From the NCBI GenBank assembly GCA_027079305.1, contig JALWVU010000055.1, positions 248,001 through 312,000 of the forward strand: 64,000 bases of DNA, in the 5' to 3' direction. Position numbers and translations under genes: made by a program. Of the stretch, positions 53,569 to 58,088 are shown in pieces. The stretch's first letter is position 1, and each line of letters begins with the position of its first letter. Under the pieces are notes generated by a model. The model ran no database searches. It saw nothing but the letters and a program-made list of their open reading frames with translations, and was not told the DNA's origin. The DNA is from Aquificaceae bacterium. Its GTDB lineage: Bacteria; Aquificota; Aquificia; Aquificales; Aquificaceae.

Positions 53569-53599
53569 TTGACAAAACAATTTTGAGATTGTATCTTAA
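53569..53599 (+). promoter_or_regulatory. feoA promoter with overlapping inverted-repeat operator
   Basis: TTGACA at 53569-53574, 17-nt spacer, TATCTT at 53592-53597. An inverted repeat TTGAGA-ttgta-TCTTAA (53583-53599) covers the spacer and -10, the usual place for a repressor. Nearly the same element recurs before feoB (53848). A metal-sensing repressor (Fur- or DtxR-type) is the expected binder, by analogy with other feo loci. Confidence 0.65.
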
Positions 53600-53625
53600 T
53601 ATCAGATTCTAAGGAGGTAACGGAT

Positions 53626-53841
53626 ATGAACATCGATGCGGTCTCGCTCGGCCAGGAGTTCACCATAAAGGCCATAAAGGATAAGGGCAATCCCATAGTT
53701 AGAAAGCTCTACGCCATGGGTCTTAAGGAAGGTAAAAGGAGCAAACTCCTTCTCAAAAACGGAAGAGTTTATCTTATACGTCTGAATAACTCAAGGCTGA
53801 TAATAGACAGGGATATAGCCAAGTTTATAGAGGTTGCCTGA
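53626..53841 (+). CDS. feoA: Ferrous iron transport protein A
   Basis: 71-residue SH3-like FeoA: MNIDAVSLGQEFTIKAIKDKG, then VRKLYAMGLKEGKRSKLLLKNGRVYLIRL and SRLIIDRDIAKFIEV. It is cytoplasmic and is thought to regulate FeoB. A strong AAGGAGGT ribosome site lies 8 nt before the ATG. Transcription should start at the TTGACA/TATCTT promoter above. feoB follows after 67 nt, with a second copy of the operator in between. Confidence 0.93.
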   Translation: MNIDAVSLGQEFTIKAIKDKGNPIVRKLYAMGLKEGKRSKLLLKNGRVYLIRLNNSRLIIDRDIAKFIEVA

Positions 53842-53847
53842 TATATT

Positions 53848-53864
53848 TTGAGATTTTGTCTCAA
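53848..53864 (+). promoter_or_regulatory. Second feo operator copy, between feoA and feoB
   Basis: Perfect inverted repeat TTGAGA-ttttg-TCTCAA, followed by TATC, nearly identical to the element at 53583-53599 (TTGAGA-ttgta-TCTTAA). No clear promoter goes with it. 14 nt further on, a second palindrome GATCTC-gata-GAGATC (53879-53894) precedes the feoB ATG. Confidence 0.6.
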
Positions 53865-53908
53865 TATCTTTGGATTCGGATCTCGATAGAGATCTCCGGA
53901 AGACAAAT

Positions 53909-55999
53909 ATGCAAAAGAGGATAATAAAGGTCGCCATAGCGGGAAATCCAAACGTAGGTAAGACCACCATACTTAACCGCTTGGCGGGAACATCCCTTAA
54001 GATTGGAAACTGGCCCGGTGTAACCGTCGAGAAAAAGGAGGCGGTTCTCAAGTTCGGGGACTACGAGATACACCTTGTAGATCTTCCAGGTATATACACT
54101 CTTGAACCCATTTCAGAAGATGAAAGGATAGCGGTCCACTTCCTCGAGGAGGAAAAACCGGACGTAATCCTAAACATAATCGAGACTCCAAACCTGGAGA
54201 GGAACCTACTCCTCACAACTGAACTTTTGGAGTTCAGCACTCCGACTGTCCTCGTTTTGAACATGATAGACGAGGCCAACAAGCTGGGCATGGAGGTGGA
54301 TGCGGGGCGTATGGAAGAACTTCTCGGCGTTAAGGTGATCAAAACCATAGGTAGAACGGGGGTGGGAGTCAAAGATATACTGCCCGCGATTGTAGAGACC
54401 TACGAGAAGAACATTGTCCCCAAACCGGTAATATACGGGGAGGAACTGGAAGAAGCTCTGAGGAAGGTCTACGACAAGCTTGAAAGAAAGGATGTTAATA
54501 AACACGATCTTATAAAGATCCTCTCGGAGGACGAGGGGTTTGCGGATATAAGAAAGGAACTTGAAGGGAAACTCGGTAAAGGCATTCATGACATACTGAG
54601 CGATGAAAGATACGCCTTCGCCCACGGCCTTTATGCAGAGGTGGTTAAGAAAAAGGGAATCTCCGCAAGGGATTTGACCGACATCGTGGACAGGATCGTC
54701 CTGCATCCATACCTGGGATTTCTGGTCTTTGTGGGGATAATATACCTTGTCTTCAAGCTCTCCTTCGACTTCTCCTCACCCTTCGTGGACTGGGTGGACG
54801 GGTTCATAAACGACTTCCTGGCCCCGATGGCTTACTTGGCTCTGAACGTGCTCGGCCTCCCCGAGTGGTTTCTAAGGTTCTTCTCCGAGGCGGTTGTGGG
54901 AGGTGTGGGCTTTGTCCTTACATTCGTTCCCCTCATAGCGAGCCTCTACTTTTTCATAACCTTCTTTGAGATGTCGGGATACATCCCCCGGGTAGCCTTT
55001 CTGATGGACAGGTTCATGCACAAGCTGGGCCTTCACGGCAAGAGCGTTATACCTCTGATTCTGGGCTTCGGATGCAACGTCCCCGCCATAGTGGCCACGA
55101 GGACGATGGAATCCACGAGGGACAAGCTCCTGGTGATAATGATGATACCTTTCATGAGCTGTCCTGCGAGGCTCGTGGTCTACGCCTTCTTCGTTTCCAT
55201 ATTCTTCAGGAATCATCCTGCACTCGTCATAACCTTCCTCTACCTGCTGGGAATTTTTGTGGCGCTCCTGACGGGGTTTTTGCTCAGAAAGACCGCCTAC
55301 AGGGGATCCATGCTCCACTTCGTTATGGAGCTTCCCCCATACAGATTACCTTCTCTTGCGAGTGTTCTCACCATAGTCTGGGTCCACGTCAAAGACTTCC
55401 TCTACAGGGCCGGGACTCTCATATTCGGAGCCTCCATATTTATATGGCTCCTCCTGAACCTGCCCCCAGGAGTTAAGAACCCTGCGGACAGCCTTGCCGG
55501 AAGCGTGGGAAAGGTTCTCGTCCCCGTATTCGAGCCTATAGGCATAGACAACTGGAAGGCGACCACCTCCCTGATCCCCGCCTTCCTCGCCAGGGAGATA
55601 GTCATAAGCTCGATGGGAACCATATACACCTCTGCGGAAGGCATAGAGCCGGAGGAAGAGGAGTTCGATCTCGCAGAGTCCTTCAGGGAGCAGATAATTG
55701 GCCTCGGTCTCGCCTTCAGGGACGCCCTTGGCTCCCTTCTGACTCTCAGCATAACCTCTCTCCAGGTGGAGGAAGAGGAGGGAGAGGACACCTTGAGAGA
55801 GCTTATAAGGAGGGACTTCTCCCCTGCAAGCGCCATGTCCTTCATGGTCTTCATACTCATATACACCTCCTGCCTCGGGACCTACGCGGTTATGGCGAGG
55901 GAGATAGGAAAGCTGAGGGCTACCTTATTCCTGGGCTACAGCTTCCTTATGGCGTGGACCTTCAGCTTCATCGTTTACAACCTGGTGAGCCTGCTCTAA
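53909..55999 (+). CDS. feoB: Ferrous iron transport protein B
   Basis: 696-residue Fe(II) transporter. The N-terminal G domain has GNPNVGKTTILNRLAG, GVTVEKKEA, VDLPGIYTL and NMIDEANK. The membrane part has many hydrophobic helices, with the NFeoB/Gate repeats such as GFGCNVPAIVATRTMESTRDKLL and MSCPARLVVYAFF. The end region has FLAREIVISSMGTIYT. I chose the ATG at 53909, which gives the typical start MQKRIIKVAIAGNPN and has GGAAG upstream; a TTG at 53870 would add 13 residues overlapping the palindrome. Full length. Confidence 0.95.
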   Translation: MQKRIIKVAIAGNPNVGKTTILNRLAGTSLKIGNWPGVTVEKKEAVLKFGDYEIHLVDLPGIYTLEPISEDERIAVHFLEEEKPDVILNIIETPNLERNLLLTTELLEFSTPTVLVLNMIDEANKLGMEVDAGRMEELLGVKVIKTIGRTGVGVKDILPAIVETYEKNIVPKPVIYGEELEEALRKVYDKLERKDVNKHDLIKILSEDEGFADIRKELEGKLGKGIHDILSDERYAFAHGLYAEVVKKKGISARDLTDIVDRIVLHPYLGFLVFVGIIYLVFKLSFDFSSPFVDWVDGFINDFLAPMAYLALNVLGLPEWFLRFFSEAVVGGVGFVLTFVPLIASLYFFITFFEMSGYIPRVAFLMDRFMHKLGLHGKSVIPLILGFGCNVPAIVATRTMESTRDKLLVIMMIPFMSCPARLVVYAFFVSIFFRNHPALVITFLYLLGIFVALLTGFLLRKTAYRGSMLHFVMELPPYRLPSLASVLTIVWVHVKDFLYRAGTLIFGASIFIWLLLNLPPGVKNPADSLAGSVGKVLVPVFEPIGIDNWKATTSLIPAFLAREIVISSMGTIYTSAEGIEPEEEEFDLAESFREQIIGLGLAFRDALGSLLTLSITSLQVEEEEGEDTLRELIRRDFSPASAMSFMVFILIYTSCLGTYAVMAREIGKLRATLFLGYSFLMAWTFSFIVYNLVSLL

Positions 56000-58012: not shown

Positions 58013-58088
58013 TCCGGGGTAGCTCAGCTGGCAGAGCGGGTGGCTGTTAACCACCTGGTCGGGGGTTCGAATCCCTCCCCCGGAGCCA
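58013..58088 (+). tRNA. tRNA-Asn (GTT), CCA encoded
   Basis: 76-nt cloverleaf. Acceptor stem TCCGGGG (58013-58019) pairs with CCCCGGA (58078-58084); discriminator G and encoded CCA at 58085-58088. D arm GCTC...GAGC; anticodon stem GGTGG/CCACC with loop CTGTTAA and anticodon GTT at 58046-58048; T arm with GTTCGAATC. No intron. A TAAAAT at 57995-58000 could be its -10. Confidence 0.97.

Follow-up and report, generated by a model that had tools for sequence, protein, structure and literature searches.

Features of the feoAB locus

The window, i.e., the whole 64-kb stretch of DNA that was analysed (G000:C55:248001-312000), belongs to a 2.0-Mb Aquificaceae assembly (75 contigs), and hence to the Aquificota, a phylum that branches deeply and most members of which are thermophiles oxidising hydrogen and sulfur. 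It contained feoA and feoB (Table 1), the identities of which, as given in an earlier note on this DNA, were confirmed by Pfam and NCBIfam; for feoB, a longer open reading frame runs from TTG at position 53870. A Uma2-family gene (PF05685; 56009-56569) was located directly after feoB, and a tRNA-Asn (gtt) was found at 58013-58088.

Table 1. Features of the feoAB locus, numbered from the first nucleotide of the window
Feature	Position	Strand	Remarks
-35 hexamer TTGACA of the feoA promoter	53569-53574	+	10/12 matches together with the -10 hexamer
Operator 1 (predicted Fur box), TTGAGATTGTATCTTAA	53583-53599	.	Conserved core 53580-53603
-10 hexamer TATCTT of the feoA promoter	53592-53597	+	Falls within the right half-site of operator 1
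Shine-Dalgarno sequence of feoA, AAGGAGGT	53611-53618	+	Read from the sequence
feoA	53626-53841	+	71 amino acids; FeoA domain (Pfam PF04023, E 3e-12)
Operator 2 (predicted Fur box), TTGAGATTTTGTCTCAA	53848-53864	.	feoA-feoB gap; repeat 53845-53868
GATCTC-gata-GAGATC	53879-53894	+	Putative RNA hairpin, feoB leader
feoB	53909-55999	+	696 amino acids from ATG; TIGR00437 (E 3e-174); Pfam FeoB domains

The palindromes that the earlier note had reported before feoA and between feoA and feoB, here called operators 1 and 2, were present at these places. Both lie in a 24-nt direct repeat, the two copies of which are 88% identical and 265 bp apart. Pattern matches without mismatches, of which 0.03 are expected by chance in the 64-kb window, were observed at these two operators only. 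Similarly, when all window positions were scored with a matrix derived from feo sites, the operators ranked first and second (22.4 and 22.2, versus 13.2 for the next position, a gap of nine bits), and they still did so with a matrix from Hydrogenothermaceae only (19.6 and 17.6, versus 10.3). They look like operators of one regulator, as had been proposed. The Aquificota box is a 7-1-7 palindrome, TGAGATT-n-AATCTCA (phylum-specific half-site spelling TTGAGATT-n-AATCTCAA), with the geometry of a Fur box, and the window sites are close variants of it; several Hydrogenothermaceae feo sites are perfect 7-1-7 inverted repeats with TGA and TCA ends.

The promoter before feoA was likewise borne out, its hexamers being separated by a 17-nt spacer and operator 1 covering this spacer and the -10 hexamer. 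The same arrangement occurs in relatives, nearly all of which display a promoter with 10-11/12 matches at this place. As for the third palindrome (GATCTC-gata-GAGATC), its location before feoB was as claimed, but it is no instance of the operator motif: it was not a matrix hit in the window, and its sequence is not conserved in relatives. The feoB leader in which it lies folds better than shuffled sequences (z -2.6). A rigid DNA loop joining operators 1 and 2 is disfavoured, since the operator-to-operator spacings across loci (265, 291, 294, 258, 260, 256, and 268 bp) share no helical phase.

Conservation and specificity of the box

Nearly every feo locus read in the Aquificaceae and Hydrogenothermaceae possessed the box 30-49 bp upstream of the FeoA start. 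A matrix score of at least 16 was reached in 51 of 56 feo loci (a few of which had been fetched twice) and in 18/20 feo loci retrieved subsequent to matrix construction. Several Hydrogenothermaceae contained the perfect palindrome TTGAGATTTAATCTCAA (TGAGATT-T-AATCTCA) at feo. A degraded box, e.g., TTGGGATTGTATATTAA, occupied the same place in G026, G033, and L058, despite the presence of Fur in G026 and G033. Outside the Aquificota, Sulfurovum loci carried a classical-type Fur box, and another bacterium (L074) carried a deltaproteobacterial-type box upstream of feoB.

Genome-wide scans were performed as pattern searches, with the reversed pattern as control. The loose pattern, with two mismatches, gave numerous matches genome-wide, modestly above the reversed-pattern control, and is therefore not specific. 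In four genomes (G006, G010, G015, and G023), the tighter pattern with zero mismatches retrieved nothing but feo sites, and when 298 kb from other loci were scored with the feo matrix, no off-feo position exceeded 16.0. Most other pattern matches in the own genome fall within genes; an isolated two-mismatch match (L088) was located between DsrE-like and GcvH-like genes. Furthermore, CTGAGATTTAATCTCAT was found within a pheT-looking gene (L087; G000:C73:137717), and the same 17-mer is present in G006 and G010, perhaps through coding conservation only.

The second recurring target was the gene of an exported protein of ~420 amino acids, located outside the window (C55:79015-80277 of the own genome; L012:130-1395) and preceded by two predicted boxes. 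No family match was obtained for this protein in Pfam and NCBIfam, and its homologue in G060 (L217) scored just below the Porin_O_P cut-off; it is likely an outer-membrane porin. The porin genes were outside the matrix training set, and the feo-only matrix found a site upstream of the orthologues in 24/24 genomes with readable upstream DNA (L236 and L250, being contig-edge artefacts without upstream DNA, are left out of this count). Each of the 24 genomes had p <= 0.017 versus Markov shuffles, and as the genomes are related, a combined p over them is no true probability. Several genomes, e.g., the own genome, G002, G001, G006, and G010, contained two porin-upstream sites. Predicted boxes also occurred on contig G060:C14 (L217 and L223) near a porin-like gene plus two exported- or ApbE-looking genes, which, read by eye, we take to encode an FMN-binding exported protein and ApbE. 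Random scatter across the genome was not what was found, since the motif occurs at feo and recurs at the predicted porin, whose presumed link with iron is drawn from published Fur-box porins (PMC545781).

The feoA-feoB junction

At the feoA-feoB junction, neither the window nor almost any of the relatives showed a promoter-like pair above shuffles, which argues against the separate control of feoA and feoB that the earlier note had put forward. Moreover, in several relatives, the end of the operator 2 equivalent and the start of feoB are only a few bases apart. Most porin-less relatives keep the half-sites NTGAGA/TCTCAA of operator 2, while its five central bases vary, a pattern as would be expected of a protein-binding site.

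A gene of ~240 amino acids lies between feoA and feoB in G006, G010, and G013. The AlphaFold model of its product (three sequences, mean pLDDT 72) is a beta-barrel that matches channels of the outer membrane (e.g., FapF and the COG4313 channel). The start-codon region of this gene aligns with operator 2 (ATGAGACTGAGTTTCAT, coding for M R L S F, in G010, TTGAGATTTTATCTCAA in G006, and TTGAGATTTTGTCTCAA in the window), and G030 contains a decayed copy of the barrel-gene start. Most likely, operator 2 was left behind when such a porin gene was lost. The predicted barrel gene (L024, L025, L026, L055, L056, and L057) is present in some relatives and lost or decayed elsewhere, the window included. 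G019 and G035 have an OprB-like gene between feoA and feoB; the internal site of this gene follows the conserved peptide GLILNLN and may be a coding chance. If the history of porin loss is true, operator 2 would be a small example of a regulatory site that has survived the loss of its gene.

The candidate regulator

Two FUR-family genes were present in the own genome, one coding for Fur and one for PerR. The candidate Fur (L050; G000:C55:386372-386734, outside the window) contained the FUR domain (PF01475, E 1e-35), had Fur proteins as its best PDB and NCBIfam matches, although below the NCBIfam equivalog cut-offs, and was nearest to the Fur proteins of Campylobacter and Helicobacter. At the position of PerR Asp104, which we take to tell Fur-type from PerR-type proteins, it possesses Glu, whereas the second paralogue (L051; G000:C55:394497) possesses Asp; the domain, the nearest relatives, and the Glu residue all agree with the Fur type. 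The nearest solved relative of L051 is B. subtilis PerR (PDB 2FE3). A Tyr-Arg pair occurs in the recognition helix of both paralogues, so that, judged from sequence alone, PerR could be the binder as well. A DtxR-type regulator, which the earlier note had named beside Fur for binding assays, is unlikely, since a search for Fe_dep_repr_C across the genome gave no match. The location of a Fur-type gene 5-6 kb from feoB in G006 and G016 offers weak support for Fur.

Many fur genes are autoregulated. No convincing box was found at either fur or perR in the own genome, which counts against Fur as the binder, and autoregulation of fur was therefore rejected. Similarly, a search of rubrerythrin promoters for a PerR box revealed no clear shared palindrome. 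Because of the 7-1-7 geometry, the likeness to the closest published box, the presence of one Fur, and the lack of a DtxR-type match, the box is probably a diverged Aquificota Fur box that is read by Fur.

Proposed mechanism and alternative explanations

On balance, it is quite probable that both palindromes are Fur boxes in an Aquificota spelling, that Fur represses a single feoA-feoB unit at operator 1 and also controls the porin, and that operator 2 is an operator kept from a lost porin gene. When Fe2+ is ample, a Fur dimer would sit on operator 1, cover the spacer and the -10 hexamer of the only clear promoter, and thereby block transcription of the single feoA-feoB unit; when iron drops, Fur would leave and feoAB would be expressed. 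The same Fur would control the predicted outer-membrane porin with its tandem boxes. Operator 2, located in the transcribed gap, would be, if anything, a second point of Fur binding, acting as a roadblock or providing extra occupancy, and would not work through its own promoter. The sequences directly show the sites, the promoter pattern, the conservation, the co-occurrence with the porin, and the two FUR-family genes; that Fur binds, that iron represses, and what operator 2 does are what we infer from them.

Operator 2 lends itself to several explanations. It may, as an inheritance from the lost porin, function as a Fur site in the middle of the operon and set the feoB:feoA ratio by blocking the elongating polymerase at high iron, which we put forward as tentative and rather doubtful; intragenic FUR-family sites and a roadblock have been discussed in the literature for B. 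subtilis Zur. That it is a mere relic of the porin start or a leader RNA hairpin, without any Fur bound, seems unlikely: its alignment with the start-codon region in G006, G010, and G013, the decayed copy in G030, and the leader folding (z -2.6 versus shuffles) would fit, whereas half-sites that stay NTGAGA/TCTCAA around five freely changing bases would not, nor would the occurrence of the same sequence at operator 1 and, as variants, at porin genes. Alternatively, feoB might have its own promoter at the junction, with operator 2 regulating it apart from feoA. This is quite improbable, for although operator 2 equals operator 1 in strength and keeps its half-sites in many relatives while its centre varies, the best pair at the junction is at shuffle level here and in almost every relative, compared with 10-11/12 matches for the feoA promoter, and in several relatives the few bases between site and feoB leave no space for a promoter with a leader.

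The identity of the binder can be questioned too, as the place of Fur might be taken by the PerR paralogue (G000:C55:394497) or by a regulator outside the FUR family. PerR keeps the Tyr-Arg pair, and the probable start codon of its gene is immediately preceded by a weak site, TTGAAAAGTAATCTTAA (score 11.5). The targets, however, are iron import and a porin instead of peroxide genes, the rubrerythrin promoter of the own genome has no box (2.9), and the published relatives of the box belong to Fur, making this explanation very unlikely.

Comparison with known Fur boxes

The window sites have the geometry and the outer TGA and TCA in common with the classical Fur box (GATAATGATNATCATTATC; 7-1-7 form TGATAATnATTATCA). 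As had been noted before, they are otherwise unlike the classical 19-mer: its GATAAT consensus is not matched, as only 8 and 9 of the 14 positions agree, and agreement at 9/14 positions or more occurs 154 times in the window. A classical Fur scan would miss both sites. This mismatch is not decisive, because the published Fur sites of deltaproteobacteria and Magnetospirillum deviate from the consensus as well. The suggestion that the regulator may recognise a new site was overstated, as the box is a 7-1-7 Fur-family palindrome near that of the deltaproteobacteria. No Fur box for Aquificota was found described in the literature searched; the present one allows the regulation of feoAB and the porin to be read where a classical scan fails, and shows to what extent a Fur box may drift while its targets, feoAB plus a porin, stay alike.

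In the complex of Magnetospirillum Fur with feoAB1 (4raz, 4rb1, and 4rb3), the operator is a TTGCAA-N5-TTGCAA palindrome, and Arg57 reads the G in its TTG (PMC4506495). The half-site geometry before feoAB is the same, and Tyr56 and Arg57 are kept in the candidate Fur, whereas the operator letters differ (TTGCAA versus TTGAGA in Aquificota). For the second paralogue, which is nearest to B. subtilis PerR (2FE3), binding to the feo sites is a conjecture.

The closest published box is the 17-bp WTGAAAATNATTTTCAW, which in deltaproteobacteria precedes feoAB and fur as well as porin genes of two types (Rodionov et al. 2004; PMC545781). Like the Aquificota box, it is 17 bp long with one central base and is located before feoAB and at porins, but half-site positions 4 and 6 differ (TGAAAAT versus TGAGATT), and it occurs at fur too, for which the own genome has no convincing box. 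One of its porins, psp, is weakly like phosphate-selective porins, is preceded by tandem boxes, and has reported homologues in Aquifex aeolicus; the other is of the OprB type and adjoins feoAB (PMC545781). The exported protein of ~420 amino acids is possibly this psp porin, and the Aquificota gene set, in which a porin-like gene carries tandem sites and feoA and feoB have OprB-like or other barrel genes as neighbours, closely matches the deltaproteobacterial one.
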